Positions 13,482 to 60,800 of a stretch of 64,000 bases of DNA are shown here, one piece after another. The notes below the pieces were generated by a model, which saw nothing but the letters and a program-made list of their open reading frames with translations, was not told where the DNA came from and ran no database searches. Both the position numbers and the translations under genes were made by a program. Within the stretch, counting starts at the first letter, position 1; each line of letters opens with the position of its first letter. Source of the DNA: Morinoia aosen (Eukaryota > Arthropoda > Malacostraca > Amphipoda > Talitridae); the NCBI GenBank assembly GCA_030386875.1, contig CM059572.1, positions 40,483,732-40,547,731 of the forward strand, given 5' to 3'.

Positions 13482-13484
13482 GGC

Positions 13485-18156: not shown

Positions 18157-18250
18157 GAGGGAGAGAGAGAGAGAGAGAGAGGGACGAGAACACCCAAGAG
18201 AGAGAGGGAGAGGGACGAGAACACCCAAGAGAAAGAGGGAGAGGTAGGTA
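18157..18250. repeat. (GA)n tract and two 34-bp units
   Basis: A run of about 14 GA steps, then ggacgagaacacccaagaga twice. GAGA tracts can mark arthropod promoters, and a GC-rich stretch follows directly. Confidence 0.7.
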
Positions 18251-20640: not shown

Positions 20641-21120
20641 GAAACGAGGCCATTTAGTATAGACCAAGGAAACGTGGCCACCCATAGACAAGGTGTGTTA
20701 CCACACAGGATATCCTGCGCATAAAAATACGTAAAGAAGGAAGAGGGAAAAAACACAAGAGACAGAGGAGAAGGTATGACAATTGAACGAAGTAAAGTGA
20801 GTGTAAATATTGAATGGAGTAAAGTGCGTGTAAAAATTGAATGAAGTAAAGTGAGTGTGAAAATTGAATGAAGTAAAGTGAGTGTGAAAATTGAATGAAG
20901 TAAAGTGGGTATGTAAATTGAATGAAGTAAAGTGGGTATGAAAATTGAAAAAAAGTGGACACGAATGATATTAGTCCTGAATGCCTATCAACAGCTAAGA
21001 ATAACCAACAGTATTTCCTTTATGGGCGCCAGCCCACATAGCATAGGATGGACGGAACAAATTAACCTAAACTTATTGCCTCAGCCATGCCTCCTGAGGA
21101 ACATGTCTGTAATACAATAA
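20641..21120 (+). repeat. Related dispersed repeat, family 2, with internal minisatellite
   Basis: Same plan as 13485-13785 (gacaaggtgtgttaccacac, gcataaaaatacg, later attgcctcagccatgcctcc). It is split by the 27-bp array at 20790-20950. Confidence 0.6.
20790..20950. repeat. 27-bp minisatellite, ~6 copies
   Basis: The unit is gaatgaagtaaagtgagtg plus tgaaaatt. It lies inside the family-2 copy and appears to have grown from its aattgaacgaagtaaagtg segment. Confidence 0.85.
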
Positions 21121-21249
21121 CGCTAAATTCACACTGCGAAACCAACGCAATTTCATTTTTTCTCGACTGAAGTTTTCAAAATTGTTGAAATCCAATTTAG
21201 GATCGAATCTCAAGCAACAGCATTTCAGAAAATAAGATTAAATTAAACG

Positions 21250-21603
21250 TTAATTTAAGCTTTCCTAACCACAACAAAAACGTTAGAGGAGAGGAAGGAT
21301 TAAGTCGCCATCAAGTATGAAGTTAAGAAGGGAACGCGGAATCTATGCACAAGGTGCATTACCACTCCAGATCCCCAGCGCATAGAAACAGCGAGTCAAG
21401 AGATAAGACTATGAAACCAGGTAGAAGTTAAAAAAAGTCAGAGGTGCTGGAAAACTGGACAGCAGCGATCAGAAAAAAACTGTCCGTAAAAAAACTATTT
21501 TATTTCATCAAACAGACAACCTATGTAGCTCTCAGCTCAGGACCTCATTTTCTCCCAGGGAGAGTCAATTCCCATTGATATAATAATTATATCCCCCTGG
21601 GTA
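21250..21603 (+). repeat. Dispersed 350-bp repeat, copy 6
   Basis: Full length. The terminal hairpin is altered to gatataataattatatcc. Confidence 0.75.
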
Positions 21604-22999: not shown

Positions 23000-23440
23000 A
23001 GCAAGCATAACAAAGGTGTGTTCAAGAGAAGGGGGAAGGCACCATTTAGTACGGAATTAAGGAAACGGAAAATCTGTGCACAAGGCGTGACTTCACACCC
23101 TGAGCATACAAACAGTAGATTAGATTAGATCAGTTAGTCTAAGTCTCCCTGACCATAACAACGATGTTCTTAAGAGTGGAAGGAGGAAAGCGCCGTTTAG
23201 TCAAGAGTTGAGGGAACGGGATATTTACGCACAAGGCATGACCTTCACACCCTGCGCATAAAAACAACATTGAAAGAAGTTCATGATATGTAATAAGAAT
23301 TGAAGAAGAAAGAAATAGGTGCTGAAAAAAGGAAAGCAGTGAACCAAAACATGATGGTCCGTAATGAAACAAAAACCTATTATATTTTAACAGAAGGAAG
23401 GCCTACCTAATCTTCAGTTTGACACCTCATATTTTCACAA
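23000..23440 (+). repeat. Dispersed 350-bp repeat, copy 7, partly duplicated
   Basis: A left fragment (23005-23110) is followed by a second copy from 23117 that includes its own left end. It stops after tcacctcatattttcac-like sequence, without the terminal hairpin. Confidence 0.7.
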
Positions 23441-31542: not shown

Positions 31543-34500
31543 CTGCGGAATTACACTACTTTTGAGCCCGCTCGTCATGCACTAATTTCAATTCACCAAG
31601 AACAAAATATCTTTTGATGTTAGTATTTTATTCCTTGAGTATTAAGCGATTGACATGTGCATAGGTCTATCATCTAGTAATATCGAGAATATCACGAAAC
31701 CGTCAAAAAGCAATATCAAATATAACCCCCCACGTGAGGCAATCATCAAATACTAGTATACCGGTTCAACCCGAGTATCGGGTTGTCCGACTTGCCTAAA
31801 AATAAAAAAAAATAAAAAAATAAAGAAAAAAAATAAATAAAATAAATAAATAGTTTTCTGCAAATATAGACACCAGTGGCTTCAATTTAATACCTCACTT
31901 GACCATATAGACTCAGCCAATTTTCTAAACGGACTCGGACAAATTTTGAGTTACTGAATTAAGTATATAGATATTATTTAGAATACCAAAAAAGACCGTC
32001 AACAAGCACTGTCAAGTAACACCACTAAGTACGGCTAACATCCGATATTATTTAGAATATCAAGAAAGACCGTCAACATGCAACACAAAGTAAAATTACC
32101 AAATAGAGCTAACTCCTGGCACTATGAAGACAATGGAGAAGAGAGAATAAGAACTAACTTCTAGCAGAGCGGTCAATAAGCACGTCGGGATCGTCATCAG
32201 ACTTGCCGCCCTCCTCGTCTGAGCTGTAGTCGCTGTCGGACAACCTGCGGGTGGTGGTGACATGCATCAGCAGGTAGTACCTGGGCCTTGAGTGAAGTAC
32301 CTGATACCTGATAATGGCAAATGGTACCTCAAGTGGTACATGGAGCTAGGAACCTGGGGCCAGATTGTGATACATGATACTAGAGAGTGGTCCCTGGTGC
32401 TAGTGTGACACGCGATGCCATAGCATGATACTTGTTGCTCGGATACAGTACCATGTGCCGGAATATTATACTTGGGACCCACGTGTAGTATTTAGGACCT
32501 GAGTATCCTAAAAGGTATCTGATTGCAGAAGCCGAACACAGACGTCAAATCGAAGGACTTTGACACCAGCCACTTGGCAAAGTTGAATTGGATGCTCAAG
32601 CAACCCATTCGCCGCGAGAGAGCAGGATTCGATCATTGGTGCATTGGTGAAGGCTTCGCCGTTCATCCATGATGATTAGCTTTAAGGTAATGAAAATAAA
32701 AGTGCGCTTGCAGCTGACCACCTCCATCCGATAGAAGTACGTCGTTTTTTATAACAAGACATAGTACTGTCGTCTCCTTTTGAGGTTCCTCCGAGGCCAA
32801 ATAACATGAATGCAGAGAGAAGTGCCCCCACTCAACCCTATAACGACTGAGCTATTTTTTCAGGAGTGAGACAATTTTTCTTGAATCATCACTCCAATGG
32901 GGTTTGAAGTTTTCAACAAAGAATATAAAGCATAAATAAGAAAGTTACGAGTTATTTCTAAACGTACTTCAGAAATGGTGTTAGATGCAATAGGTTTAAA
33001 CGGGGCAACAATGGGGTTTGAAATTTCAACAAAGCATCTAGATCCTAGAGTCTAATTAAAAGTCTAATTCTAGAGTCTAATTGTCTAGAGTCTTCGTCTA
33101 GAGTCTAAGAGTCCTCGAGCGGCTAGTTTAATTATTATGAGCTATTTTTAATATACTTCAGAAAAGACGGACTACTATATATGTTCAACTGAAGCTCCAA
33201 TGGGGTTTGGACTATTCAACGAAGCATCCATCTAGAGTATGTGTGAGAAGGATAAGGGTAATTTGAAACGTGCTTCAGAAAAGATGGTCGGCGTATAGGT
33301 TTGAACAATGCCAGTGCACTGACCCGAGTTCTGCTGCAGGGAAGTGCGGGGGGAACAGCACGTACTGCAGCACGCACGGGAATCTGTCACTCTCAACGTC
33401 GCTGTTGTAGTCTTCCGCGTCCAGGCTCAGCTGCAAATGATTCAGTGTCTTATACAATGCCCCATCTCTCCAAAATAGAGTAAGTTGTTAAAATTCTTAG
33501 CCTCAGAAATAGCTTCTTAAATTCTCAACTGGTGGTCAACTATCGCACTGAGAAAACATTGTACGAAGACATGAATTTTAATATTTTGATGTCACTGTCG
33601 TATTAATGATAAGACTGAAATGAAGAAAAATAAAAGCCACATTAAAGAAATGTAAACTTCTTGTCTTTGACATTGATTCATTTTAATTGTTAGAGTGTGA
33701 GAATGTAATCGGGACGTGGAACCATTGCACTCTATATCTTGATAAGCTCTTGTCTTTAGAAAATGATCAGTAATATGTACAGAACTTTATTTTAATACCA
33801 TTAACATGGCGAAGAATGGTGAACCTGTCACAGCGACAGACAACGAAAGCGCTGGTAGTTGACATATTCTAAAGAGAGAAAGTAATTTTCAATCAGGCAT
33901 TCGTGGATTTTAAATTAACCGTTCGATTTAAAATTTACTTTGCATTTTTTTTCTTTGCAATGTTCATAAGCTAGCACTTGACAAGACTCGCCTCTAGTGA
34001 ACTACAGCTATGACGACAGCCTTCCCACTGGAGACAGTTAGTAGAGCTATTTTTCTTAACTTAACAGCAGTCCGTGTTCAATTCCCATTTACTGTTGTAT
34101 TCATTTTGAGTATCAAAATAAAATTATTCTCATATATTATAGCAAATAAACATTACCATAATAAGTAATATCACGCATAATGTGCTGTGCAGGAAAGGCA
34201 ACTACCAGCATTCAAACGCAAAAACATGGAAAAAGTACAAGAGGGAAATGAACACAGTTGAGCAACACCAGCGATTAACCAATGGAAGTTTTCCGTCTAA
34301 TACCGAGAGAGACGTACAAAATGACACAAAAATCCTTACACTGTAAAAACCACCATGAGCGCTGCTGTTTTACAATGTGTTACGACAGATACCACTGCGG
34401 AATTTCAATTCCTCAAGGAACAGTGACGTAAGGTACAATTTATAATAGAAGTATGATCAAAGAAGAACAATTAGAAAACTTACCTTCATCATGACTTCCC

Positions 34501-37500
34501 TGACCATGGTGATCATGCCATTGTGAGAAAACGCTATTTTGAAGCCCTCGTTTAGGCGAATCCTGCCCAACATATGGACTCAAATTAGATTTAAAGTTAG
34601 TTTGGGCCTCTCTAACAACAAAAAAGGTGCTCCAAAAAGAGGAAGGATAAAGACCCCATTCAGTGTGGAGTTAAAGGAACGGAGAAACTATGCACAAGGT
34701 GTGTTCCCACACATAAGATCCCCTGCGCATAGGAACAGAAAGTTTGGAAGGAAGTTTATGAAACAAGATAGAAGTTGGAGAAGAAAGGAGTAGGCGTTTA
34801 AAAACAGCACAGCAGTGAACCGAAAGAAGATTTCCTCAACTAAACAAAAGTTTTTCAACTAAAAGAAGGCCTATCTAACTCTCAGCTTGGAACCTCACAT
34901 TGGCCTCTTGGGAGAGCTAATTACCATATATACAATAGTTGCATCCTCCTGGGAGGACAAAAGGTCATTATAAATCCTCATAAGCACTGCAACAATACTG
35001 ATTGAAATTCACTAATACCTTAAAACAAAACCTCAAGCTAAGCTGAGGTTTAAATCTGAAGTATAACATAAGATGAGTTAGATGATATACGCAACTTCAA
35101 TGCGCTTCAACCAGTCATAAACTTTGATCCATGAATACCACAGGTGTAATTTGCTCTAACAAATGATGCAGTATACTTTCGTTGTCACATCATGACTAAT
35201 CATATACCATCATTGAAACATATTTTCCGGCACAGTTACTTCAAAAAGAAAGAAAACGGCTCAGACACGAGAAACCCAGACGAGCCGCTTCTCTATAAAC
35301 AAGTTCATCCCTTCTCTGACCCAGCAGCACCAGGTAGCCCTTACCTTGTCAGAGAGTGGAGGATTCTGGACAGCGTTTTGATATCAGGAGGAGGCACAGT
35401 GAGCTGCTCTTCTTCAAGCTCCCCTCGAGCTGCTAGGGTCACACTGGAGGAAACACTGCTCCTGCCGGTATAAAATGATTTCCCAGCGCTGGAGCTGCTC
35501 GGTGCAATATTGCTGCTCTGGCCGTACACGACGCGTGTGACTGCAGGCTTGTTGGCAGGCACAGCTGTCGTGTCGCTTACGTTGGCAGACATGTCCTCTT
35601 TTGGCGGGACAATGGACCAGATCCAGCGTCTGTGGTGCAGGTACCTGCTCAGCAGCGCCTGGTTGTTCACAGACACCTGCTTGAAGTTGAAGGAAAGGGG
35701 ATGGCTCATGTGCAGCTCCGCCTCGGCTGGCATCACCTGCAGCATTTTCCTGGGCATGCTCTGGTACCTGGAGACACGTATGATTTCATTGTTCAACTCC
35801 ACCATTCTGATCTCAACACATAGGGGTCTTTGAGAATTGATGAATGCGAGCTATCTAAAATACAGTATATCAGAGCAATTTGAACTTCAAATCGAATGTA
35901 AGATTTTAGCTTAGCAAAACAATAATTATTAGAAAATACTTCTATTTTCATTCTGCGTAACACAAATTCGAAGAAAACTTGCCATAGTGAGACCCTCAGC
36001 GTTGCTGCTTTTATGTATATGAGAACAATTCTTGAGACATAATGGTCATCACACAGGGACAAAACCTTGCCTGAACAACAGCGGTACTTCTAATGGTATC
36101 ACGTAGGGTGACTATGTTGTGAGTAAAGGACATCAATGCAAGCAAATGCCCTCAAGAAACGTGGTAGATCAAATTCAGTCCAGTTTTCTCAGCAGCAAAT
36201 ACCAGTCACTAGCACTGACAACGTAAATGTAATAAATGCGGGCATGTTATTCAAAGCAGCAGCTGTACATACTAAGTAAAAATAAATTAGAAAAACATTT
36301 TCAGATGACGACTGGAGAAAATTGACAATATACTTGATAGGAACATTCATGCATATCACAAATTCAATTTGGCTTGCAATTTTTGCACACCAAGAATTTT
36401 AATTTGATTTTCTGCACACTACAAGAATAAATAGAGATGATACAAAAGAACCACAACTTGGGTGCACAGTACAGCCTGTCTGCCCCAAAAGAAGCACAAC
36501 TCAGGCGCACAGCCCGAAAAGAAGCACAACTCAGGCGCACAGCCCCAAAAGAAGCACAACTCAGGCGCACAGCCCCAAAAGAAGCACAACTCAGGCGCAC
36601 AGCCCCAAAAGAAGCACAACTCAGGCGCACAGCCCCAAAAGAAGCACAACTCAGGCGCACAGCCCCAAAAGAAGCACAACTCAGGCGCACAGCCCCAAAA
36701 GAAGCACAACCCAGGCGCACAGCCCCAAAAGAAGCACAACTCAGGCGCACAGCCCCAAAAGAAGCACAACTCAGGCGCACAGCCCCAAAAGAAGCACAAC
36801 TCAGGCGCACAGCCCCAAAAGAAGCACAACTCAGGCGCACAGCCCCAAAAGAAGCACAACACAGGCGCACAGCCCCAAAAGAAGCACAACTCAGGCGCAC
36901 AGTCACAAAAGAAGTACAACACAGGCGCACAGTCACAAAAGAAGCACAACTCAGGCGCACAGTTCAGCACCTCTGGAACAAGACAAGTTCAGCTCACCAG
37001 ATGAGGATTTTGTCAATCTGCTTGTGTGTGATGACGCAGCACGGCAGGGGTACAGGGGACGGCTGCTCCCCCATGCTCGCCTCGTCCACCCCCACCTGGG
37101 GGAGGGTCAAGATGAGATTGTAAGTTAGTTCTAGCATCCACAACCCTAACAAAGGTGTTCCAAAAAGAGGAGAGATGAAGATGCCATATAGTATGGAGTT
37201 CAGGGAGTTCGGAATCTACGCACGAGGCATGTTTCCACACAAGATAGAAACAGTAAGTTGAGATGGAAGGTTCTGAAACGAGATAAAAGTTGAAGAAAAA
37301 AAGTCAGAAGGCATGAAAAAGGGGGATTGAAACATTGAAGCTTCTCTCTTATGTACCTTGTACAGTAACTCTGACAACGGATCTCGCACAGCAAAACGCT
37401 CACTCACTTCCCTCACTATTACTTTATATCCTCAGAATACTCACTAAACAGCACTGAAAAAAGTTATTTAGAAGTACCCATTAGAATTCAAATGATGAGA

Positions 37501-40500
37501 TCATTTAAATCCACATTGAGGTGCGCATATTTCAGAAACATTACCCCCTTTTAAAATTCCACTGTAATAATTTGAATATACAAGCTTGCAAGCACCAATA
37601 TTTAATAAATCATGACAAATTGCTTTTCATTCTGATTAAATTCTTTTGAAGATTCACTAAATTGTCCACTACCAACTCGTAAGCTACACCTACTTCGGTT
37701 TACAAGGTTTCAGCGGTTAAAACACTACAAGCACTAGAATTTATACACATCAAGAAATTTCACAGACGTTCGAGTGAAATAAATTTTTGTTTAAGGAAGA
37801 CTCTCTACTACAAGAAATTAGATTACATTTTTATAAGTTAATTTAAGCCTTCCTAACCACAAAAAATAGTGTTACCAAGAGACAAAAGAGGAGAAAAGAA
37901 CCCATTACAATGAAATTAAAGGAACGAGGACTCCATGCCCAAGGAATGTCCCCTTACTTGGAGCACAGAAGCAGCAAGATTGAAAGAAGTTTATGAAACC
38001 TGAGATAAGTTGGCAAAAAGTAATAGGTGCTGGGAGAGCAATAGGGAACTGAAAAGATAGTTTGTAAAATAGCAGAAAACCTGTTCTATTAGAACAAAAG
38101 GAAGACCTATTCAACAGGACCTCACATCTTCTCCTTGCGAGCGCCAATTCCCGTAGATACAATAGTTGCATCCCCTTGAGGGAGGAGTCTACAAGCTACC
38201 CTCAAGAGGAACAAGGTAAAGAAAAAAATCGCTGAAAACTCAAAAGTTATCCAAGATAAAAAAAGAACGAGTTTTACGTCAAAACAGGTTGCTAATTCAT
38301 TGAAAACAGCCACACTAAATGCAGTAAACATTTTCAAGAATCATGAACAACTTGCAATTTTTCAGCAAAATGGTACTGTTGCCACTGAGAATTGATAACT
38401 AACTTCTAGATTGCGGAAAAGTGATTTTAAGCAACACGAAATGATTTTTCTTTTAATATTACAGTAATAGAACTGTTTCACCAACTCAACATGCTCAAAA
38501 CGCACACAAGCACGCTTTCACATTAACCATTCATTTGCCTACACTACAACGAGCTCGAGCGTACATCGACGCCAGCACAACTGTGCCTCGAGCGTTGCCC
38601 TCTGTCATGGTGTGGGGTGCCAGAACACGTCACGAGTCGTCTGGTCGCTCCACCCATGCGCTTACATGCACGATATGCAATAGGTGTGTATTTCAATAAC
38701 TCTACAAAGTTACTGAGCTTTCCCCTATGCAAAATTTCTGAGATCTCACTGAAATTCTTCACAGAACAGCAACAGCTTTCTGTTCAAAAGTGAGCACCAT
38801 TCTCTTCGTCATTTGAAGGAATGTTATGCTGAACATCACCACAAAGTCAGTGATATTTTCTATAAAAAGAAAATTTCCATGAGCTCGTTGAAATTACAGA
38901 GCAGTAACACAGTTGTGTTCAACAGTGAGCACCGTTTTCTTTGAAAGCCATGCTCAGCAAGACAATTGCTTTGTCTAGCTCGAGCACAAGACATCGCAGA
39001 TCAGCTGAAAACCCCATCGTCGTAGCAAAACTGCATTCTAGCACATCCAAAAGAGAGCGAAAGGAAAAATTAGATAAGCTAAGACAAATCCAAGATAAGG
39101 CACAGGAACTCAATTGTACTTCAAGGCATATGTGGGGTAATGCAAGATAAATCTGGGGTAATGCCAGGTAAATATGTTACGCAAGGCAAATCTGAGGTTA
39201 TGCAAGGTAAATATGGCGTAATGCAGGGCAAAACAGGAACGATTTAAGGTAAATTAAGGGCATGGTAACTAAAGAGCAGTTTAAGGTAAATCAAGAGCAG
39301 GTCAAGGTTCAAGAGCAATACAAAACAAACCAAGAGGAAATACAAGGAAGCCCATGGTCGATTTATAGGAAATCATGGTCACCCAAAAGGAAATCAGGAG
39401 CAATATAAAGGAAGTCTAGAGCAATGTAAGAAAATCAACAGCAATACAAAGGAAATTGGGAGTAACACAAGGAAATCATGGGCACCCAAAAGGGAATCAG
39501 GAGCAATACAAAGAAAATCAGGAATAATTCAAGAAGAATCACAGTAAATTCAAGCAAAATCAGAAAAATTCAAGTAAAGAACAAAAGAGATTGAAAATAA
39601 TAGTAGCAATTTTTCCAGGCATATCACAAGTATTTCAAGGTAAAATCGGCTGATTCGGTTCAATGCATAACTTAAAATAGAACCATAAGTAATAGCAACT
39701 AGAAACAAAGCGTAAATGCACATTAAATCGAAACTAATGAAACGGAAATGCAACACCAAATTGCATTGAAGAGATCCGAGTGTCCCCACTGGCATATCGG
39801 GTCCTAACCCACTGATGTGTGAGGCCAGTCGGAGTTATGAAGAAGACAGGTCAAGGTGAGGAAAATGCGAAATGTTTCATTCATTTGCGAGCCACAGGCC
39901 GCCCTACTCGAGACTTACACAGAGGGCACTGATGCAGGAAAAGGGGTAATCAAAGACGCAAATACTGAATTGAGGGAAAAAATCCGGAAGTAGGGGGCTA
40001 CCAAAGGCACAAATGCTGAAGTGAGGGCGAGGAGGACACAAATGCTGAAGTGAGGGTGAGGAGGACACAAATGCTGAAGTGAGGGCGAGGAGGACACAAA
40101 TGCTGAAGTGAGGGTGAGGAGGACACAAATGCTGAAGTAAGGGCGAGGAGGACACAAATGCTGAAGTGAGGGCGAGGAGGACATAAATGCTGAAGTGAGG
40201 GCGAGGAGGACACAAATGCTGAAGTAAGGGCGAGGAGGACACAAATGCTGAAGTGAGGGGGTAGGAGGACACAAATGCTGAAGTAAGGGCGAGGAGGACA
40301 CAAATGCTGAAGTGAGGGCGAGGAGGACACAAATGCTGAAGTGAGGGTGAGGAGGACACAAATGCTGAAGTGAGGGCGAGGAGGACACAAATGCTGAAGT
40401 GAGGGTGAGGAGGACACAAATGCTGAAATGAGGGCGAGGAGGACACAAATGCTGAAGTAAGGGCGAGGAGGACACAAATGCTGAAGTGAGGGCGAGGAGG

Positions 40501-43500
40501 ACATAAATGCTGAAGTGAGGGCGAGGAGGACACAAATGCTGAAGTGAGGGGGGTAGGAGGACACAAATGCTGAAGTGAGGGCGAGGAGGACATAAATGCT
40601 GAAGTGAGGGGCGAGGAGGACACAAATGCTGAAGTAAGGGCGAGGAGGACACAAATGCTGAAGTGAGGGGGTAGGAGGACACAAATGCTGAAGTAAGGGC
40701 GAGGAGGACACAAATGCTGAAGTGAGGGCGAGGAGGACACAAATGCTGAAGTGAGGGTGAGGAGGACACAAATGCTGAAGTGAGGGCGAGGAGGACACAA
40801 ATGCTGAAGTGAGGGTGAGGAGGACACAAATGCTGAAGTGAGGGCGAGGAGGACACAAATGCTGAAGTGAGGGTGAGGAGGACACAAATGCTGAAGTGAG
40901 GGTGAGGAGGACACAAATGCTGACGTAAGGCCGAGGAGGACACAAATGCTGAAGTGAGGGTGAGGAGGACACAAATGCTGAAGTGAGGGCGAGGAGGACA
41001 CAAATGCTGACGTAAGGCCGAGGAGGACACAAATGCTGAAGTGAGGGTGAGGAGGACACAAATGCTAAAGTGAGGGTGAGGAGGACACAAATGCTGAAGT
41101 GAGGGTGAGGAGGACACAAATGCTGAAGTGAGGGTGAGGAGGACACAAATGCTGAAGTGAGGGCGAGGAGGACACAAATGCTGAAGTGAGGGTGAGGAGG
41201 ACACAAATGCTGAAGTGAGGGCGAGGAGGACACAAATGCTGAAGTGAGGGTGAGGAGGACACAAATGCTGAAGTGAGGGCGAGGAGGACACAAATGCTGA
41301 AGTGAGGGTGAGGAGGACACAAATGCTGAAGTGAGGGCGAGGAGGACACAAATGCTGAAGTGAGGGTGAGGAGGACACAAATGCTGAAGTGAGGGCGAGG
41401 AGGACACAAATGCTGAAGTGAGGGCGAGGAGGACACAAATGCTGAAGTGAGGGTGAGGAGGACACAAATGCTGAAGTGAGGGCGAGGAGGACACAAATGC
41501 TGAAGTGAGGGCGAGGAGGACACAAATGCTGAAGTGAGGGTGAGGAGGACACAAATGCTGAAGTGAGGGTGAGGAGGACACAAATGCTGAAGTGAGGGTG
41601 AGGAGGACACAAATGCTGAAGTGAGGGTGAGGAGGACACAAGTGCTGAAGTGAGGGTGAGGAGGACACAAATGCTGAAGTGAGGGCGAGGACACAAATGC
41701 TGAAGTAAGGGTGAGGAGGACACAAATGCTGAAGTGAGGGCGAGGACACAAATGCTGAAGTGAGGGTGAGGAGGACACAAATGCTGAAGTGAGGGCGAGG
41801 AGGACACAAATGCTGAAGTGAGGGCGAGGAGGACACAAATGCTGAAGTGAGGGTGAGGAGGACACAAATGCTGAAGTGAGGGCGAGGAGGACACAAATGC
41901 TGAAGTGAGGGCGAGGAGGACACAAATGCTGAAGTGAGGGTGAGGAGGACACAAATGCTGAAGTAAGGGTGAGGAGGACACAAATGCTGAAGTGAGGGTG
42001 AGGAGGACACAAATGCTGAAGTGAGGGTGAGGAGGACACAAATGCTGAAGTAAGGGTGAGGAGGACACAAATGCTGAAGTGAGGGTGAGGAGGACACAAA
42101 TGCTGAAGTGAGGGTGAGGAGGACACAAATGCTGAAGTGAGGGTGAGGAGGACACAAATGCTGAAGTAAGGGTGAGGAGGACACAAATGCTGAAGTGAGG
42201 GTGAGGAGGACACAAATGCTGAAGTAAGGGTGAGGAGGACACAAATGTTGAAGTGAGGGTGAGGAGGATACAAATGCTGAAGTAAGGGCGAGGAGGACAC
42301 AAATGCTGAAGTGAGGGTGAGGAGGACACAAATGCTGAAGTGAGGGTGAGGAGGACACAAATGCTGAAGTAAGGGTGAGGAGGACACAAATGCTGAAGTG
42401 AGGGTGAGGAGGACACAAATGCTGAAGTAAGGGCGAGGAGGACACAAATGCTGAAGTGAGGGTGAGGAGGACACAAATGTTGAAGTAAAGAAAGTAACAA
42501 CACAAACGCTGATTGGAAAATGAGGACACAATTACTGATGAAGTAAGAAGAATACAAAAGTAGGAGATATTAATGATACAAACGCTAGAGTTAAGGAGAG
42601 GAAAGGAGGACACAAATGCTAAGAGCAAAGAGGACACAGTTGCTGATGAAGAAAGAAGAATACAAAAGAAGGGGGTATAAATTATACAAACGCTGAAGTG
42701 AAGGAACGAGGCCACAAACGCATGAGGCAAATTGAAGACACAACGAATGAGTAAGACCAACTGTTATGAAGAACACAAATGCAGAAGAGCCAAATCAGAA
42801 GCACACCATGAACAAGCCGCGGCGCACGGGCCACCTACCTCATCCTCCGCTAACTGAGGAAGAAAAACAGAAACATTCACTCAACTAAGATCAATAAACA
42901 GTACTACTGCTCTATAGCTTCATTACTATCAAGTGTATTACAAGCAACAACTAGTAGTTTGTTTCATGAGTAACCCCACACTAACGTCTGCAGTTTTGTC
43001 AATTTTAAACAATACCTATGCAGTTAAACTATATATATGCATTAGTAAATAGTAAAACTAAGCGAACGAAGGAATAGCTACACTGTCTGTAAATGATAAA
43101 CAAGATCTGTAAAATAAGCACTGAAGAACAGATACATACGGCGCAGGACTGCAAAGCAAGTTATGGCATAAGAAACAACTATTGTGTTCAAACACGCTAA
43201 GTAAGTCATGGTATGAGGGGACAGCTACACGGTCCATAACTTCAAAGCAAGTTTTGGCATTAAGTAACAGCTACCGTGTTCAAACACACTAAGTAAGTCA
43301 TGGTATTAGGGGACAGCCGCACGGTCCATAACTGCAAAGCAAGTTATGGCATTAAGGAACAGCTACCTAATCCATACACACTGAGCAAGTTATGGCATAA
43401 AGGAACAGCTACCTAATAAGTTATGGTAGAAAGGACCAGCTACACGGCCCACAAGCCCTAAATAAACTCCCACAAAAAACAGACATCAGAGAGCAGCAAA

Positions 43501-45836
43501 TTGAAGCAGTGGGATGTTCACTAAATACTGGAACTCGCTAAGCACCACTTTTGATCATCACGTTACAGTATGAAGCAACAGTGTTGACCACACCCGCGAC
43601 TCTAAATTGACCTAGTTACTGTATATCTACAGTAAATCAACTGAAGCTTTATCTTAAAAGTTTTGTTCAACATTCAAAAGTTAATGAAAAACATTGAACC
43701 ACAGTTAAAACTTGAAAAATAGTCCAAGCTTGCATACCATACATCTACATATAGTAGATTACTGAACAATGAGCGTAAATAATAATAAAATGCACAGAGT
43801 ACGTAAGTTTTGGCTTTGAATTGGAGCATAACAAGCCCAAAACGCATAATAAAAGTAAAAGTACGATATCATTCCATTCAGACGCCCGTACTTACTTCAA
43901 AACGAGGTCATGAAAGTAAAACATCGCACTGCAACACTGAAATCACACAACGAGCAGGCCTTTGACGAATAAAAAATGTTCACAAAACGCCACGCACTAC
44001 TTGAAGGCTGATAACCTTCAACCACAATTTATTCCCAAATATAAAATGGAAATAATAATTTACTGAAGATCTACTTTTAAAGAGAGATTCCATTACACAA
44101 GACTTGGCGGTATAAGCTAACATCGCGTCCCTATCCCGTGCGTGGAACTGATGCTGCATTCGTGCCCGCATCAGGGAGTGCCTTTTCAGTAGCGTTAGAT
44201 TACTCATCCGTAACACCACCCAATACCAGGATCAAAGATTCCAAACTGCGTCATAACTCTACCTCAAACCACTCAAAAATACACAGCGTTGACCATTTCC
44301 CACCGAAATTGTTACACTGCACAACGCCAGATCAAAAGCGTAGCATCTCTTTTATGGCGTTCCAAACCACGTCATAACTCAACCTAAACTCACTCAAAAA
44401 ATGCACAACGTTGGCATTTCCCACACATTTCATCCTAAACAAACTATAACCTACACAACGAACAGTAAAAGTGTGACTATCATAAATACCAGCCAGCAAG
44501 CACCCCACTGTAGAGCAAGCAAATAACACCGCTTGACTTGTAAATAAAGCAAGCATGGCTGAACACCACAAACCTTAGCAGCGAAGGAGGCGGCAGCAGC
44601 AGACGTGGGCTCATGACCTGCCCGGACGCGAGCGCCATCAGCAGACACGGCATCAGGCGCGTCTCTGGCGCCAGTCCGCGACACACTGAAGCGCCCCACG
44701 CCCCCACCAGGAGCGGCAGCGTCGTGCCCTCCGGCAGCCTGGGGGCCGAGCACGGCGCTGAAGGCGTCAGGAGGCGACGCCGAGGCGGTGAACAAGTCCG
44801 GGGGGCAGGGGGCGGCGCTGGAGAAGGTGCTGGAGGGGCCTCGCCTCTGCAGCCACTTGCGGCCGTGTCGGGGCCGGAGCGGCAGCGTCAGGCGGCTCAC
44901 CAGCCCGCGCAGCTCCTCCACCAGCTGGGGCGGGGCACTTGTCAACGCCAGCACACACCGCATACACACCACCTATACACCCGCATACACACCGCCTACA
45001 CCCGCATACACACCACCTACACCCGCATACACACCGCCTACACCCGCATACACACCGCCTACACCCACATACACACCGCCTACACCCGCATACACACCGC
45101 CTACACCCGCATACACACCGCCTACACCCGCATACACACCACCTACACCCGCATACACACCACCTACACCCGCATACACACCACCTACACCCGCATACAC
45201 ACCACCTACACCTGCATACACACCGCCTACACCCGCATACACACCGCCTACACCCGCATACACACCGCCTACACCCGCATACACACCGCCTACACCCGCA
45301 TACACACCGCCTACACCCGCATACACACCGCCTACACCCGCATACACACCACCTACACCAGCATACACACCGCTTACACCCGCATACACACCGCTTACAC
45401 CCGCATATACACCGCCTACACCCACATACACACCGCCTACACCCGCATACACACCACCTACACCCGCATACACACCACCTACACCCGCATACACACCACC
45501 TACACCCGCATACACACCACCTACACCTGCATACACACCGCCTACACCCGCATACACACCGCCTACACCCGCATACACACCGCCTACACCCGCATACACA
45601 CCGCCTACACCCGCATACACACCGCCTACACCCGCATACACACCGCCTACACCCGCATACACACCACCTACACCAGCATACACACCGCTTACACCCGCAT
45701 ACACACCGCTTACACCCGCATATACACCGCTTACACCCGCATATACACCGCTTACACCCGCTTGCAGCTGTATGCAGCACATCGTCACGGGCACACGCGC
45801 ACAAAGCATCACAGGCACACACAGCATAAACACACA

Positions 45837-45877
<41 letters not shown>

Positions 45878-48800
45878 AGAAAGTTTTAGCCTCCCTTAAC
45901 CACGAAAAAGATGTTCCAAGAGAGGAAAAAGGAAGGCACCATTTAGTATGGAGTTGAGGGAACGTGGAATCTATGCACAAGGTGCACAGAAACAGTAAGC
46001 TAGGAAAGAAGTTCATGAAACAAGAAAAAGTTGAAGAAGAAAGTAGTAGGTGCTGAAAAACAGGACAGCAGTGAACCGAAAAAAGATGGTCCGTAACAAA
46101 ACAAAAACCTATTTTATTACAACAAAAAGGAAGCCTACCTAACCTTTAGCTCGGGCCCACACATGGTTCCCCTGGGAGGGCTAATTCCATAGATACAATC
46201 GTTGTATCCCCCTGAGGGGCATAAGCACACAAGCGTAAGCAACATATGCATCACGAGCTACATAAAACTTACTACATCATAAGCCTAAATATTTAGCACC
46301 TAAATCATAAATACAATGGAAAATAGTTAGTTTCTTATTCCATATTTTTAATCCATTGTATACATATATTTAGCACCTAATAAAATTTCACACTTGAAAA
46401 ATTTGGTACTCTAAAATATGCATTCACTTATAGTACGTTAAGCATTTAAATCTAATTCAAAATATATGTTTCCTGCAGATAAGCAAAAGAATTTACTAAA
46501 CAAGAAATCTTCCATACCACGCACAGCGTGATGCCGTTCCCACATATACAAGATGAAATCCCGAGTTATGATTCCGTTTAGATTATTTGTATCTTCATGC
46601 TGGCTCATATTTGTAATGAAAGGTGAAAAGGATCAATTCCATGACTTACATTTGCAAATAAATGACAAAACTGCAATTTCGAGCTAACAGACCTTCTGCC
46701 TGACACAAACAGTGAAACTGGAGACCCGAGTGATGACAGAAATTGATAACAAAGCTACAGCCTGTAGCTAATAGACTCACCTAACAAAAACAGTGACACA
46801 GGATACTCGAACAGTGACACAAATAAGTGACAAAACCACTGCCTACAGCAAACAGACTGTCAGGGAAATTTCTCTAGGTTAAGGACATGTGTAAATCACA
46901 TAGCGGTGCGACCCCGTTACCCGTAAATTGTACGTTTCTTAGGGCGGCCTGAGACTTGAGACAGTTGTGTTTTGTCTGTCGTACCCTTCAGTAAGTATGG
47001 TAATTTGTTAGCATTTGCGAATATTTATTTAAGACTTGTTTTGACACCTAATGAATTTTTGAGATCCGAAATTATTCAACTTTGCCGCTGGTTAAATTTC
47101 ATAAAGTTGTCAATATTTTTTTTTCGTTGTTTCAGGTTGGATTATTAGGTCTGGCCTGCCTAGTGCCACACTGTGTTTCATCTATCTTTGGCTTGGAATC
47201 TAAAGCGAACGTATGATCTAGAGATCCCAGTAATACTTGTTTTTCTTCTAAATTCTTCCTGTTCATCCGACAAGGTACTATTTATTTACTAATTCCTTTA
47301 TAATTGTCATTAGTCAATCATTTCTTTCATATTAATTATATAATTGAAGTCTTTCGTTTATTTTACCTTGATCCCCACATACTAAAGAACCTGGTATCCT
47401 GACAAAGTGGCGACCTTGCCAGGGGGATCTCGGTAATTCTTTTTTTTTCTTCTCTCGTCTATTTATATTACTGGGATTGATTTAGTTTGCTATTGCGGCA
47501 CAAATTACTTGCCTAGGCCAGGAAGTATCTCCAGACTAGAAAGACGTCTGTGTGTGCCCTGATTCCTGAGAGCAGCGAGCCTCTCTGTCGCAACCTAACT
47601 TGATCTCTCAGTGGTGTGTCAATTGACGCCAAAGGACTGAGACTTTCATCGAGCGTCATAATGAGTTCTTATCGAACTATAGCTGAACTACGTGAGGAAG
47701 CTACCCTCCTACAACTAACTGGTGCCGATGCCGTTGATTATGTGTATAAGCAGCAAGCTGTTGAACGTGAAGAACGAGCCAAAGACCGGGAGCTGGAGAA
47801 ACAGCGAGCAGAGATAGAAAAGCAGCGAGCAGAGATTGATCTTCAGAAAGCTAGATGGGCCGCTGAAGAAAAGCAAAAGGAAAGGGATCACGAGCTGGCT
47901 CTCTTACGTGCCCAGACTGCAAGCAGCGGAACGCACTCTGATGTGTTCTCAGAGGTGGCATCAAAACCCAAATTGCCTGTGTTCCAAGATGGAGAAGACA
48001 TAAAGTCCTTCATTATTAGGTTCGAACGTATAGCAGACCTGCTTAAGCTCGACCGAAGCACCTACGCTGTACGTCTGGGTACTCTATTGAGTGGCAAAGC
48101 CCTTGGAATCTACGCTTCTCTGCCCCCAGAAATTACTGAAGATTACGAAAAACTTAAACGTGCCCTCTTGGTTGGGTTTAATAAAACGCCAGAGACATAC
48201 CGGCAAGAATTTCGCTCTCTAAAAATTGGTCCACAAGAAACTTACGAACAGTTCGCCGTACAACTGGGTCGGTCCCTGGACTACTGGATTGAATCACGAC
48301 AAATTGAAAAAAATTATGAATCTCTGCGATCCTTTGTCCTTGCTGACCAGATCTTTGCGTCTGTCACTCCTGACCTTAGATGCTTTCTTAAGGAACACGA
48401 CGCATATGATTTACCGGATATCGTGAAGTTAGCAGACAACTGGGCCACGGCGAGAAGAGCGTATCCAAGGACCCAAAATCTAAACAACGGCTTTTCGACC
48501 TCATCAAATGATACTCTCGGGGCTCAATCCTATTTCGAATCTGAAGAGAGGAACGAAACGTCAAAGACGCGAGCAGTGCGGTGTCACGCTTGTGGAGTCT
48601 ACGGCCACATAAAGTCACAGTGCCCGAGAAATCCCGCATCGTATCCGGAGTCTGTGTTCCGAGATAACCAAATCAATTTTTGTGTCGGCTATGCTGCTAC
48701 GAATAGCTACACGTGTTGTGGCTCAGTTAATGGAGCGAAGGTATCCACAATCCTGAGAGACACGGGATGCTCGTGTGTTGTAGTTTCCGAAAAAGTGCTA

Positions 48801-51800
48801 CCCGATGTCGACGTAAGCCGGTGTAAATACGCCTCCGTTAGAGACTATTTGGGTCGTGAGAGTAGCTTCCCAATCGTGCGCTGCTACTTAAGGTGCAAGT
48901 ATTTTACCGGATGGATAAATGCTATCAGAGCTCCAATAAAATTCTGCTCTGTGCTGCTGGGCAACATCAAAGGAGTGTCTTCGGCGGGTGAAGAGAAACC
49001 TAATGTAGTAAAGTCAGCAGGAACTCCGATTACACAAATGGCAGCAGTCGTCACCCGTTCCTCTAAGTTAACCAAATCCCCACATCCATTCGTGTCGGGG
49101 AAAAAGGATGCAATTCAAATATCTCCTGCAGAATTTGGAAACTTGCAAAATACCTGCCCGACTTTGTCGGGGGTAAGAACAAAACACGAGGCCAGAGAAG
49201 CGGATGCTCTTCTCAACGGCGGTGTTTATAAATTCGTATCTGTAAATGGTCTCCTGTATCGCAAGTGTGTACAATCCCCCTTCGGGGAAAATGTTGGTCA
49301 GCTCGCGTTAGTTGTGCCATCTAAATGTAGAAGTCGTATTCTTGATGTATCTCACGCCTCCCCACTTGAAGGACATTTTTCTCGTCGTAAAACAGAAGCA
49401 AAGATCAGAGCTAATTTCTTCTGGCCTGCAATGGGTTCAGATATTAGGAATTTTTGTAGGTCGTGTGGTAAATGCCAACGTGTGTCCCCAAAAGGACGGG
49501 TTAAAATTGTTCCTATGGTTGAAATGCCAATTATTTCAGGACAATTTTCAACGCGTGTTCGTCGTGTTCCGAGTTAGGTTAAGCCTAGGTTAAGATCCTT
49601 AGTACTAAGAGTAATTCGAAAAATTTCCCTAGATTTTGTCATTTATTAAAATAAATGTCCTCGATGGGGGAGCTGTTGTCAGGGAAATTTCTCTAGGTTA
49701 AGGACATGTGTAAATCACATAGCGGTGCGACCCTGTTACCCGTAAATTGTACGTTTCTTAGGGCGGCCTGAGACTTGAGACAGTTGTGTTTTGTCTGTCG
49801 TACCCTTCAGTAAGTATGGTAATTTGTTAGCATTTGCGAATATTTATTTAAGACTTGTTTTGACACCTAATGAATTTTTGAGATCCGAAATTATTCAACT
49901 TTGCCGCTGGTTAAATTTCATAAAGTTGTCAATATTTTTTTTTCGTTGTTTCAGGTTGGATTATTAGGTCTGGCCTGCCTAGTGCCACACTGTGTTTCAT
50001 CTATCTTTGGCTTGGAATCTAAAGCGAACGTATGATCTAGAGATCCCAGTAATACTTGTTTTTCTTCTAAATTCTTCCTGTTCATCCGACAAGGTACTAT
50101 TTATTTACTAATTCCTTTATAATTGTCATTAGTCAATCATTTCTTTCATATTAATTATATAATTGAAGTCTTTCGTTTATTTTACCTTGATCCCCACATA
50201 CTAAAGAACCTGGTATCCTGACACAGACCATCTGCCTGACACAGTGAAACAGGAGACCCGAGCAATGACAGAAATTTATGACAAAACTACAGCCTGGCGC
50301 AAATAAAACTGCCTAACAAAAAGAGCAAAACGGGAGACTTGAGCAATGATAGAAATTCATGACAAAACTAAAGCCTGGCGCAAATAAACCTGCCTAACAA
50401 AAAGAGTAAAACGGGAGATTTGAGCGATGATAGAAATTGATAGCAAAGCTACAGCCTGGCACAAATAGATCTGTCTACCAAAAACATCAAAACGGGAGAC
50501 CTGAGCAATGACAGAAATTTATGACAAAACTACAGCCTGGAGCAAATACACCTAACAAAAACAGCGAAACGAGAGACTAGAGCAATGATAGAGAAGAATA
50601 GCAGAACTACCAACTCGAGCGGCCCCACCTTCTGCCTGAGGGCACCAGGCGTGCCCCCCAGGAAGGCGAGCCTGACGGTGATGCAGGGCGGCTTGGCAGG
50701 GCTGATGCGCACCAGGATGAACGAGAGAGGCACCTCTGCCTCCCCTGCGCTCTCACTCCGGCTCGTCACGCCTTTCCTTCGATCTTTCTTACCTTTAATT
50801 ACACAAGATAAGTTAGTTTAAGCCTCACAACCGAAATAAAGGTGTTAAAACGAATAGGAAGGCCCTATTTAGTATGAAGTTTATGGAACAAACGACCAGG
50901 TGTATTCCCACCCCAGATACAGTAAGTTGTGAAGTAAGTTAATGAAACAAGATAATAGTTGTAGGAGCAAGTAGTAAATGCTGAAAAACAGGACAGCAAG
51001 GATTAAAAAAATGATCCATAACACAACAAAAAACTTATTCTATTCAAACAAACGGATGGCTTACCTAGCTTCCAGGTGGCGACCTCAAAATTTGTCCATA
51101 GGAGTGCTAAGTCCTACAGATAAAGTGACTGCATCACTCTTAGCTACCAAATAAAGAATTTCACAAATGAAATTCAGTCGAAAGTCCTCGTGACATTTCC
51201 AAATCAAATCTTTACCACATATAAACAACCAACAGAAAACATTCCAACATCAAAAATGCTTTCAAACAAAATTTCAACACCTATAAAGATCGAACAAATC
51301 TTACGGCCAGAAACAGAGGAGCTTGAGAGCGGGAAGTTGGACGCAGAGCGGAGACTGGAGTCGCCACTGCTGCCCACATTGGGAGTATCCAAGCCACTGT
51401 CGCGGTTGGACATGCTGCTAAACGCGGCAGAATCTCCTCCCTCAGTCTTGCTTGCAGGCGTCGTGTGGTGCTTCATAAAGCTCTCGCCAAAGTCGTCCAA
51501 AAATTGCCTAGAGGTTGAGATATCCTCAGAGTTTTTAGAAGCCATGGCAAAGTCATTGGGATCAGAAAGAGCGGAGTCGTGGCTGCGAGACATGGGGTGG
51601 CACACCGTCAGGGATCTCGGGATGACCCCTCGTCCCTCTCTCGCTGGAGAGACGCCCGTGTGGGGGGACCGGAGCGTGCTGCTCAAACTGCTGTCGTCTG
51701 AGGCTTCCTTTGCTGACTCAAAGTCTTTCCTGAACACGAAATGAATCAGAAATAGAATTCAAGGAGTTGTACAGAAACTCTTTTCTGCAACAGCTGCTGC

Positions 51801-54800: not shown

Positions 54801-57800
54801 ATAAAACCTTTCAGAGACCAGCTCCATCCTCAGTCATTCAGTAAAATTTGGTGAAATGGACAATGAATTTTCACTGTTCCTTTGAAAAACATTTGACTGA
54901 ATGACTTACTGAGGACGGAGCTAGTCTCCGAAAGGTTTTATAGAGTGAATAGATTCTTTGTGGATATTTTATTTTAAGACCTGGTACGGTTCTAATGGAT
55001 ATTAATATATCTTATGTGAGCAAAAAATCCATGCTGTTTTTTGAATGTTTTTGTTACAAAAAGTCATGACTAAAAAACACGGATATTAATTTACTTTATT
55101 TTACCATAAACAACCATGCTGTTTTTTTGAAAACCTTCTTTTTTACAGAAAAATCATGATTAAAAAATGAAGATATTAATATATTTCATGTGCCAAAAAA
55201 AAGCCATGGTGGTTTTTTTAAATCATGTTTTCTTTACAAAAAAAATCATGACTAAACAACATGGATCCTGATGACTTTTTGTGAAAAAAACATGGTTTTT
55301 AAAATGTCATGTTTTTTGGTCAGATAAAATTTAATAACACTCATGTTTTTTATATAAATCTTTTCTTCAAAAAGCATGGTTTTTTGGTCACATAAAATAA
55401 ATTAATATCCATGTTTTTTTTTACAGATAAAATTAGTCATTAGTTTTAGCCTCCCTACCCAGCAACAAATGCGATCCAAAGAGAGCAAGGAAGATTATGA
55501 AACAAGATCAAAGTTGAAGAAGACAGTAGTAGGTGCTGAAAAACAGGACAGCAGTGAACCGAAAAAAGGTGGTCCTCAACATAACAAAAACATTTTATTT
55601 CAACAAAAAGGAGGCCTACCTAACTCTCAGCTTGGGCCCTCACATTGTCCCCCTGGGAGCGCTAGTTCCCATAGATACAATAATTGTATCCCCCTGAGGG
55701 GGGTTTTTTTTTTACAAAGAAGTTGTGACCAAAAAATGAATAATAATAACTTTTTAATAAAAAAAAATGTTTTAAAAAAAACAATGATTTTATTGGTAAC
55801 ATAAAATATGTTAATATCCATGATTTTAAGACACAATTTTTTATGAAAAATACATAAAATATAACAGCATTGTTTTTTGGTCGCATAAAATATATTCATA
55901 TCCAGGTTTTCTTATACATCATTGTTTGTAAAAAAACATATTTTTTAAAAAACAGACGGGTTTTTTAGGCATCATAAATTTATTCATGTTTTTTTAGTTA
56001 TGATTTTTTAGTACAAAAACATTTTTTTGGTCTCATAAATATATTATTCATGTTTTTTCAGTCATTTTTTAGCAACAAACATGCTTTTTTTTAAAACTGC
56101 ATGGGGCTTTTTAGGTCACATAAAATATATTGTTTTTCAGTCATGATTCTTTGTAAAAAAAACAGCATGGTTAATTTGGTACTAGAAAATATATTAATAT
56201 TCATTTTTATTAGTCAGAATTTTTTGTAAAAAAACATGTTTTTAAAAAAACAGCATATTTTTTTGGTCACCTAAAATATATTACTATCTATGGTTTTTAG
56301 TCATGTTTTTGTAATGACAACATAAAAAAAATCATACAGTAAAAGTGGTGGCAGATAACCCACAATTACCTAGAGGAGTCTAAGAGGTACAGCAGGAGCC
56401 ACAGAACTTACCACAGAACTTATATTGATGGAGTCAAAATTCAGAGCTTATTATCTCTGCAAAGTCTGATTTTTTGGTCACATAAAAATAAAATCAGACA
56501 TAGTAGAGATAGTAAGCTCTGAATTTTGACTCCATCAATATAAGTTCTGTGGCTCCTGCTGTTCCTCTTAGATGCCTCTAGGTAATTGTGGGTTATCTGC
56601 CACCACTTTTACTGTATGGTTTCTTTTTGATGTTTTTATAACAATAAAATGACTAAAAAACATGGATATTAATATATTTTAGGTGTCAAAAAAAACCAGA
56701 CATATACTTAAAAAAATTTAGAAATGCAAAAAAAAAACAAAAAAAAAACAAAAAAAACACATAAAAACACAAAAACACGTTTTTTTTGCAAAAAAAACGC
56801 AATCAAATAAAACCGTTTTTATTTGCATCACTAGTTATGGCTGCAAAAGATATTAACATGGCCCCAATATTGTAAATCTCTCGACATCTACTACTTCCTT
56901 GAAGAATATAAACAAAAATAATTTTTGATATTTTGTGCAAATTTTCCTAACGAACATCAGAGAGCAACCACATCCATGAGGAAACCTTAAAACGAGAGAC
57001 TCAGGACCTTAGTGCGGTTGCACAACTCTCCAGGATGTGCTTTGCTCAAAAAGTGCGATCAATTAACACATTTTGGTGCAGATCAGCGCGGGGTGACTCA
57101 CTTGTACAGGAACTTGACGTAGGTCTGGCCCTCGAGCAGCACGAGGTGGCACCACTTGGCCAGCAAGGTGCCCAGCGTCAGCTCCGCCAGCCGGCACTGC
57201 ACCAGCCCAAACCTGCACTCAACAAACCCCCGGCGAGTTACATCTAAGTCTTACTTAGCCAAGTTCGCCACTTCTTTAAGTGTTTCAATTTGGACTAGAA
57301 CAAATTTCTGAAGTTGATCTAGGTGAAAAGTAGTACATCACAGCTTACTAAACTAGAACAGTTAAAAGCTTTGATGCTTTAGATCTCTGTTCTACAAAAA
57401 ATCAGAAACAAATTATTACACCTACTTGCGCAAAATACGAGTATTTGAAACTAAGCCATCATGAAGTGTAATGTAAGGACACTTGCTAGACCAGTCAACA
57501 GATGCTACAGTTGAGATTGTCCGCAGTGATCAACCTCGCAACACGCGACACCTGTTTTTGCACTCAACACTAGCAACATACAACACCACAAATACCTCCT
57601 ACACACAACACAAATACTTCCTACACACAACACAAATACTTCCTACACACAACACAAATACTTCCTACACACAACACAAATACTTCCTACACACAACACA
57701 AATACTTCCTACACACAACACAAATACTTCCTACATACAACACAAATACTTCCTACACACAACACAAATACTTCCTACACACAACACAAATACTTCCTAC

Positions 57801-60800
57801 ACACAACACAAATACTTCCTACACACAACACAAATACTTCCTACATACAACACAAATACTTCCTACACACAACACAAATACTTCCTACACACAACACAAA
57901 TACTTCCTACACACAACACAAATACTTCCTACACACAACACAAATACTTCCTACACACAACACAAATACTTCCTACACACAACACAAATACCTCCTACAC
58001 ACAACACACATACTTCCTACACACAACACAAATACCTCCTACACACAACACAAATACCTCCTACACACAACACAAATACCTCCTACACACAACACAAAAT
58101 ACCTCCTACACACAACACAAAATACCTCCTACACACAACACAAATTCCTCCTACACACAACACAAATACTTCCTACACACAACACAAATACTTCCTACAC
58201 ACAACACAATTACCTCCTACACACAACACATACCTCCTACACACAACAAAAATATTTCCTACACACAACACAAATACCTCCTACACACAACACAAATACC
58301 TCCTACACACAACACAAAATACCTCCTGCACACAACACAAAATACCTCCTACACACAACACAAAATACCTCCTACACACAACACAAATACTTCCTACACA
58401 CAACACAAATACTTCCTACACACAACACAAATACTTCCTACACACAACACAAATACTTCCTACACACAACACAAAATACTTATCTGTTGGTGTAAGCAAC
58501 ACAAAACACAACCACCTCCTACACACAACACACACCTGATGGTGTACGCAACACAGCATCACAAAAAACACAACCCACAACACCTGTTGTTGGTGTAGCT
58601 GTGCAGAGTGCGGGGCAGCGGAGCGTCGTGCTCGAGCACGAGGCCGATGCGGTGCGTGTGGAGCCACTTGTGCCAGGCCCCCACCTCCAGCAGGCAGAGA
58701 GGGCGCCAGAACTCGTACACGCTGCTGCTCACGCCGCTCTCGCTGCACGAAACGCCATGCTTATATCACCTCATGCCATTAGTGGGCCTCCAGACAATTG
58801 AAAACCCCAGGGCGCTTTGGGGTGGTCGCTAGTTGCGCCAAGCATGGGATAGTTACTCGTAGGGCCATGCATGGGGTGATTAGTAACAGGTTACGCATGG
58901 GGTGGTTACTAGACGAGTACATATGGGATTAGTGGTTTGAGTCAATGCATGGGGGGTGATTAGTGGCCGAAGTAATGCATGGGGGGGTGATTAGTGGCGA
59001 GGTGATGCATGGGGGGTGATTAATGGCCGAAGTAATGCATGGGGGACGATTAATGGCCGAGGTGATGCATGGGGGACAATTAGTGGCCAAAGTAATGCAT
59101 GGGGGACAATTAGTGGCCGAAGTAATGCATGGGGGACAATTAGTGGCCGAAGTAATGCATGGGGGACGATTAGTGGCCGAAGAAATGCATGGGGGGTGAT
59201 TAGTGTCAAGGTGATGCATGGGGGGGGTGATTAGTGGCTGTAGTCACGCATGGGGTGAATAGCAGCTGGAGGGATACATGGGGTGAATAGCAGCTGGAGG
59301 GATACATGGGGTGAATAGCAGCTGGAGGGATACATGGGGTGAATAGCAGCTGGAGGGATACATGGGGTGAATAGCAGCTGGAGGGATACATGGGGTGAAT
59401 AGCAGCTGGAGGGATACATGGGGTGAATAGCAGCTGGAGGGATACATGGGGTGATCAGTAGTTGGAGTGACCCATGGTGTGACTTGGTGTGGGGGTGATC
59501 TAGAGCAAGGGTGATCATGAGGATCAGACATGTAGTGAGATGATCTCATGTTTCAAGAGAGTTCATATTGCTACAATCCCTCCTGCGTGCACAGAAGCAC
59601 AAATACAACTTGTGATAAAAATTAGGGCTCAAGCCCTAAAAGAAGACAGAATGGCCTCAAAACAACACCTGATCTTTTGGGCCACATCACTCAATTTTAC
59701 ATTAGATCATTTAAATTAATCATGCCTCCCTAACCCCCAACAAAGAGTTCTAACAAGAAGAAAGATTAAGGCATCATTTAGTATGGAGTTAAGAAAACGG
59801 GGAATCAATGAAGAAGGTGTGTTCTCACACAATATACCCTGATCATAGAAACAAGTTAAGAAGAAAGCTTATGAAGCCAGATCAAAGTTGAAGAAGAAAG
59901 TCAGAAGTGCTGAGAAAAGGACAGCAGAGAATTAAAAAACATGACCTATAACAATTTAACAAAATTAAAACCAATTCTTTTTCACCAAAAAGTAAAGCTT
60001 ACCTAATCTTCAGCTCGATACCTCACATCAAAAATCAAGACAAAGCTCTAAGAGAAGGGCAAAGTGGCCAATTCTCTCAAAGCTGGCTAATTACACTCAT
60101 TTCTTGCACAGCACCACTCAGTTCTGGGCCAAAAGAACTTAATGAAAGAGAAGTTGAAGACATAACTATGACCTTATTCTCAACTAATTGAACACTTCAC
60201 AACTATAAGATCTATGCTAACGTAGTACATCGCAACAACGCGGGAGTATCTAAGGAAGTATCTATTTAAATGAGGATTTAAAGACCTTAAAAGGGTGGAT
60301 TGCCAACTGTTGCGATGTGAACCACTCTGTACAAGTCCAAAAATTAAAATGACGTATTATTTTGTTACACATACTCGAACTGAAATTTCATCAGGCTAAA
60401 AAAATACCTATGTCTAACTGAAGTGGCTTGAACACACGCGATAGTTCGTAAGTGCACTTAGATAATGCTGAATTTGCATCTAGTTTAACACTTTGACTGC
60501 AGCAACTAAATATTAAGTTCAACATTAAACTCAAATTGAAAGTCAGTTGTAGTAAGCTATTTGGAAAATGCCACACAAAAATGGGATCGTGTCTTCATTT
60601 AGCTTTGATTAAATATTCATGAAAATTGGGTTTGTGACTACTGGTTCTACAGCAGCATTATGAAAATTACCTCCGTGTACCACCAGTGGCACACGTTGCA
60701 GTCAAAGTGTTAAAAGAAGGGCAATAGGTCGTATAATCCTCAGTTGTGGCAAACATGAATCCAAAAACAAAAACGTTTATTATAACACTCAAAAAAAATA

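Follow-up and report, generated by a model that had tools for sequence, protein, structure and literature searches.

Sense-oriented copies of a SINE-like retroposon as the probable branch-point region of three SZT2 introns in Morinoia aosen

In three introns of the SZT2 gene of the amphipod Morinoia aosen, copies of a dispersed repeat of about 360 bp fill nearly all of the usual branch-point range, which raises the question of where these introns branch during splicing and what the repeat contributes. We analysed a stretch of 64,000 nucleotides (the window, C17:40483732-40547731) and searched the genome of 1.99 Gb in 29 contigs, in which 115 Chitin_bind_4 matches point to an arthropod. The initial annotation had reported three repeat copies (8, 9 and 12) just upstream of exons 12, 10 and 7, and direct reading of the sequence showed that all of its coordinates were correct. 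The repeat is a high-copy, apparently non-coding retroposon that resembles a short interspersed nuclear element (SINE). Where its copies landed right before an exon, the repeat tail probably became the splicing branch point, and we consider it likely overall that a retroposon tolerated in the sense orientation came to host branching in its body or tail.

SZT2 was placed on the minus strand of the window by matches, with residues in order, to SZT2 of the solved KICSTOR structures. Residues 497-557 were matched near 61 kb (whole-query E 1.2e-7), residues 663-698 near 50.7 kb by exon 7 alone (whole-query E 0.12), residues 746-866 between 37 and 34.5 kb by exons 10, 11 and 12 joined (E 1.5e-7, the exon-12 part being weak on its own), and residues 919-939 near 31.4 kb (whole-query E 0.79). 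Exons of SZT2 were verified only above 31 kb, and sense to SZT2 is presumed for the lower half. The acceptor of exon 12 (34484-34562, minus strand) reads GGGCAG/GATTCG, with the exon in frame with exon 11 when codons are read by hand, and that of exon 10 (36998-37095, minus strand) reads CCCCAG/GTGGGG, its position following from homology and frame (codons by hand). The acceptor of exon 7 (50629-50792, minus strand), AAAG/GT, is weak, lacks a pyrimidine tract and is less certain than the other two, as SZT2 homology begins at codon 19 and does not fix its position; it was picked because it is the first AG past the repeat, preserves the reading frame and agrees with the phase of exon 6 (by hand). 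Read directly, introns 11, 9 and 6 end at 34563, 37096 and 50793, respectively.

All three copies lie on the minus strand. Intron 11 holds a near full-length retroposon at 34583-34955 (positions 2-356 of 358 of the hidden Markov model, HMM), intron 9 a 5'-truncated one at 37110-37320 (HMM 161-357), and intron 6 a near full-length one at 50808-51142 (HMM 5-347), which starts about 160 nt downstream of the donor. The HMM matches reach 34583, 37110 and 50808, leaving 20, 14 and 15 nt of non-repeat sequence before exons 12, 10 and 7. The CTAAC motifs proposed as branch points were confirmed at 34596-34600, 37124-37128 and 50812-50816, with the candidate branch A at 34597, 37125 and 50813, that is, 34, 29 and 20 nt from the intron ends. 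Branch-point motifs are usually of the yUnAy type, about 18-45 nt from the AG, and such a motif is present at that distance in all three introns. The claim that CTAACTTA is the end of the repeat did not hold, as intact copies carry on into a tail of TAATCT-type units. Remnants of this tail provide alternative branch points in intron 11 (CTAAT at 34584-34588, A at 34585, 22 nt from the intron end) and intron 9 (CTCAT at 37112-37116, A at 37113, 17 nt from the intron end), and we regard these units as candidates equal to CTAAC. CTAAC was intact in 3/3 acceptor-adjacent window copies versus 4/13 other window copies (P = 0.06).

A similar layout was found in kinesin and myosin genes. The sampled regions were a hand-chosen main set of 125 kinesin and myosin regions (95 regions plus 30 loci from 205 matches), and a hand-chosen replicate of 40 regions (36 SNF2 and 4 UCH regions from 122 matches); assembly twins and intronless or stop-rich matches were left out of the exon matches, and L164, which overlaps L059, was not used. 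Sense 3' ends adjoin acceptors in kinesin and myosin loci L072, L162, L103 with its paralogue L097, the paralogues L077, L091 and L093, and L114, and further cases are L067 (15 nt from the acceptor) and L050 (40 nt). Some of these features were identified by eye, namely the L097 and L103 tails, the nearest tails in the L077 group, and the additional exons of L050, L067 and L114. L067, the first copy in L050, L114 and L115/L119 stand beside non-focal exons and serve as examples only, outside the counts. Because little else lies in the usual branch-point range of the three SZT2 introns and the kinesin and myosin layout is the same, we infer that the repeat supplies their branch-point region, as the initial annotation had proposed; a repeat A would then be the branch nucleotide. 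As a separate observation, in L115 (C1:31425216-31425816) and L119 (C20:35927222-35927822) the intron seemingly consists of tandem copies of the acceptor and exon start (judged by eye), and the retroposon end precedes the first of these acceptor copies.

SINEs and other short non-long-terminal-repeat (non-LTR) retroposons are short, with a fixed 5' end, a simple-repeat 3' tail and target duplications of about 7-20 nt, and often carry a head derived from RNA polymerase III transcripts (tRNA, 7SL, 5S). Of these features, the short length, fixed 5' end, tail and duplications are seen in the repeat. Its 16-base terminus occurs exactly 7,726 times in the genome (3,801 + 3,925), CTAACTTA is followed by TAATCT-type units in most of the 30 loci read, and 36 near full-length copies begin sharply at a common point near CCCCTCAGGGGGATACAA, 5' of which their flanks are unrelated except in nested copies and one duplicated locus. 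Its non-coding nature was judged from length only. Target duplications, mostly of 12-15 nt, are present in younger copies: 21 of 37 copies scored above the 95% null score and 11 of 37 above the null maximum. Exact 13-nt pairs flank the copies in L139 and L171, which lie inside introns, while L186 has a 14-nt pair in an acceptor region that, with one mismatch and AT-rich, is not certain. The L186 pair suggests that the copy inserted in a pre-existing acceptor region, with the host tract and AG left downstream, and the window copies, too, probably entered introns that already existed. The repeat is thus like SINEs in its short length, fixed 5' end, simple-repeat tail, 12-15-nt target duplications and thousands of copies. 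It is unlike them in having no tRNA or other Rfam head where searched, in its extreme sense bias in the sampled genes, and in a 3' end that looks like a branch-point region. The window yielded no tRNA and no Rfam match at gathering score; one copy searched against Rfam gave four weak matches (best E 0.11), all far under the gathering scores, and one copy folded no more stably than shuffled versions of it (z -0.89). We also considered whether a T-rich target steers insertions to polypyrimidine tracts, but the duplications, although they mostly begin with T, are not tract-like, and this idea was not adopted.

The striking bias of the repeat is in its orientation, not in its distance to the acceptor, a point that the earlier analysis had missed. 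In the window, the minus strand carries all 67 HMM hits, of which many are units of a single minisatellite, and 16/16 window 3' ends are on the SZT2 strand. Upstream of exons, the main set gave 27 hits, 25 of them sense (19 loci) and 2 antisense (2 loci), with one locus holding both, and the replicate gave 7 hits in 6 loci with none antisense; some loci in these counts are paralogues of each other. A weight matrix trained separately on repeat-picked loci only gave 25 hits in the 165 regions, all of them sense, and in 30 myosin loci that overlap the main set 9/11 hits were on the strand of the gene. We then compared the strands of neighbouring copies at 446 places on C1-C4 among the matches listed (repeats left out), most of which were picked by a nearby motif and which include assembly twins. 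Pairs of these listed matches shared the strand in 35/39 cases at 10-30 kb, in 103/140 at 30-100 kb and in 480/952 at 0.8-1.6 Mb. Copies also agreed with the strand of exon matches in 6/6 cases within 50 kb and 10/11 within 100 kb, again among the matches listed. An agreement of 90% would mean that about 95% of copies are sense, if all copies lay in genes.

Two causes of this bias were weighed. The antisense copy is purine-rich and has GTTAGT near its start, which resembles the 5' splice site consensus; because of this, our preferred cause is selection against antisense copies, which would act like exons and disrupt the transcript. The other is directional insertion, in which the template strand of transcribed genes would be the preferred priming site of reverse transcription, for instance at R-loops, and copies would be sense from the start. 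The copies in the strand list have an exact or one-base-variant 16-base terminus, yet agree in strand at 10-30 kb as often as given above, which fits directional insertion; however, the 23 loci with such a terminus that were measured had a median identity of 95% to the consensus, and at this identity copies are old enough for selection to have acted on them. We regard directional insertion as unlikely.

According to the explanation that we prefer, the retroposon is copied into the genome by target-primed reverse transcription (TPRT), and its genic copies, in the loci sampled, occur almost only in the sense of transcription. A sense copy resembles the end of an intron, its pyrimidine-rich body being followed by CTAAC and then by the TAATCT-type tail. 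Insertion of such a copy just 5' of a 3' splice site would move the old branch point some 370 nt off, and the CTAAC/CTAAT-rich end of the repeat would replace it, with the host AG staying downstream. The intron would thus remain spliced, with branching now within the element or its tail.

Several results weigh against this explanation, beginning with the distance of copies to acceptors. In the window, the interval from 34.4 to 63 kb holds 7 3' ends, of which 3 are no more than 60 nt from one of 11 acceptors (P about 0.0004), but these acceptors follow the exon numbering of the initial annotation and the window was selected because of this very pattern. After paralogue merging, the main set held 23 sense 3' ends at 20-470 nt from a focal acceptor, the core being used for most rows in the main count. 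Within 60 nt, where 2.8 were expected, there were 3/23 by the core (P = 0.53), 4/23 when the L077 group was scored by its nearest by-eye tail (P = 0.30), and 5/23 by the HMM end (P = 0.13); within 120 nt there were 9 versus 5.5 expected (P = 0.08). In the replicate, for which the rule fixed in advance named the repeat 3' ends without choosing between core and HMM end, 0/6 lay within 60 nt by the core and 1/6 by the HMM end, this being L186 (53 nt by the HMM end, 64 nt by the core), and 2/6 lay within 120 nt. An apparently strong enrichment near acceptors in the kinesin and myosin set was lost after paralogue merging, restriction to focal acceptors and the replicate. Genome-wide, acceptor-like versus reversed motifs numbered 722:588 near the repeat and 842:659 far from it, giving no excess (log ratio -0.04, standard error 0.08), in a blunt count in which some copies are counted twice and some near matches are starts of neighbouring repeats. 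The check proposed earlier, that ends of the family be enriched near acceptors, thus came out negative in the sampled regions and the whole-genome counts alike, indicating neither significant enrichment nor depletion.

Other points on the same side concern the motifs and the insertions. At 129 ordinary acceptors, placed heuristically by a simple score and without the repeat nearby, we compared words at -48 to -15 with those at -250 to -150. CTAAC was not enriched (7 vs 20, 1.13-fold), whereas CTAAT was 3.8-fold commoner at -48 to -15 (11/3,741 words vs 9/12,384) and CTGAT 3.5-fold (12 vs 11). These values may hint that the tail is weightier than the CTAAC first proposed; the leading word, TTCGT, is unlike a branch motif, and word P values near 0.002 fail correction for the number of words tested. 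The branch point may also lie at a distance in the three SZT2 introns, and in L186 the host sequence past the duplication carries its own CTAAT. No recognisable target duplication was found for the copies in introns 11 and 6 (score 2.0 each), a background level that is expected for old copies; the intron 9 copy is truncated, and the insertion event of these three copies is thus presumptive.

A rival explanation is plain coincidence, in which sense copies of a dense repeat lie anywhere in introns, some end by chance at acceptors, and a weak local branch site is used. Proximity outside the window was indeed not significant and the whole-genome counts were without excess, but coincidence explains neither the sense bias nor why the acceptor-proximal zone tolerates copies at background density, and we think it improbable; even then, these introns would most likely still branch within repeat sequence. 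The likeness to introner elements raised at first is very improbable, because, although the 3' end abuts acceptors and intron 6 is short and mostly repeat, similarity stops short of the donor by about 160 nt in intron 6 and 388 nt in intron 11, most window copies are away from known exons, and younger copies have TPRT-type duplications, which in L139, L171 and probably L186 lie within introns.

In mammals, the 100 bp next to exons hold fewer SINEs than expected, and those in human introns, mainly Alu, have a sense bias 20-200 bp from exons that is ascribed to cryptic acceptors on antisense copies (PMC3088655). The retroposon shares this sense bias but, unlike the human SINEs, shows no such depletion near exons and agrees in strand over tens of kilobases. 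The dog SINEC_Cf at PMEL (merle) also sits at an intron-exon boundary and bears on the choice of 3' splice site; it is antisense, uses its oligo(dT) as the tract, creates an alternative acceptor and is disruptive, whereas the copies here are sense and the exon is apparently still used (PMC6091007). Introners have been sought as similar introns whose similarity reaches near both splice boundaries, and they are, like the retroposon, mobile elements bringing or recruiting signals for splicing, but they make whole introns with such similarity, whereas that of the retroposon stops short of the donors (PMC9860276). We found no literature report of a family that combines a 3' end serving as branch-point region with a near-total sense bias, few subscription papers being reachable.

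A bolder extension, which is conceivable but doubtful, is that the retroposon is a splice-compatible passenger: a portable 3' branch-point region would let it insert or survive almost only in sense and take over branching beside 3' splice sites, so that the branch points of many ancient introns would have been rewired with exons unchanged, and in its boldest form insertion itself would be guided by transcription. A family that is nearly all sense and as dense beside acceptors as elsewhere would suggest that the splice grammar of an element determines where it can live, and would naturally generate turnover of branch points. Any annotated genome with this family allows the strand bias to be checked at once.

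The remaining window copies, all identified by HMM on the minus strand, lie at 907-1286, 1478-1841, 17820-18157, 21235-21601, 37830-38182, 45868-46219 (ending in a TAA microsatellite), 55425-55701 (in two pieces) and 59715-60028. Two adjoining pieces span 23004-23436, further adjoining pieces (13024-13108, 13123-13482 and 13488-13571) span 13024-13571, and a weak fragment is at 20584-20743. In the retroposon at 9739-12661, positions of about 255-308 are expanded to a minisatellite with a 53-bp unit, present in about 47 copies at 9835-12325. Other long minisatellites in the SZT2 region (39904-42763, 44900-45830, 36460-36960, 57480-58600 and 62140-62600) keep frames open for hundreds of codons. 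On the plus strand, opposite to SZT2, a 657-codon open frame at 47604-49577 resembles retrotransposon gag and integrase-zinc-finger regions by eye. In the assembly, C17:43183898-43184198 and C17:40518131-40518431 (L001 and L002, an SZT2 pair that is 100% identical over 301 bases), the kinesin matches at C16:45757691 and 47110390, and others are segments with equal match scores that lie on the same contig at distances of 1-3 Mb; such segment pairs look like uncollapsed haplotypes.

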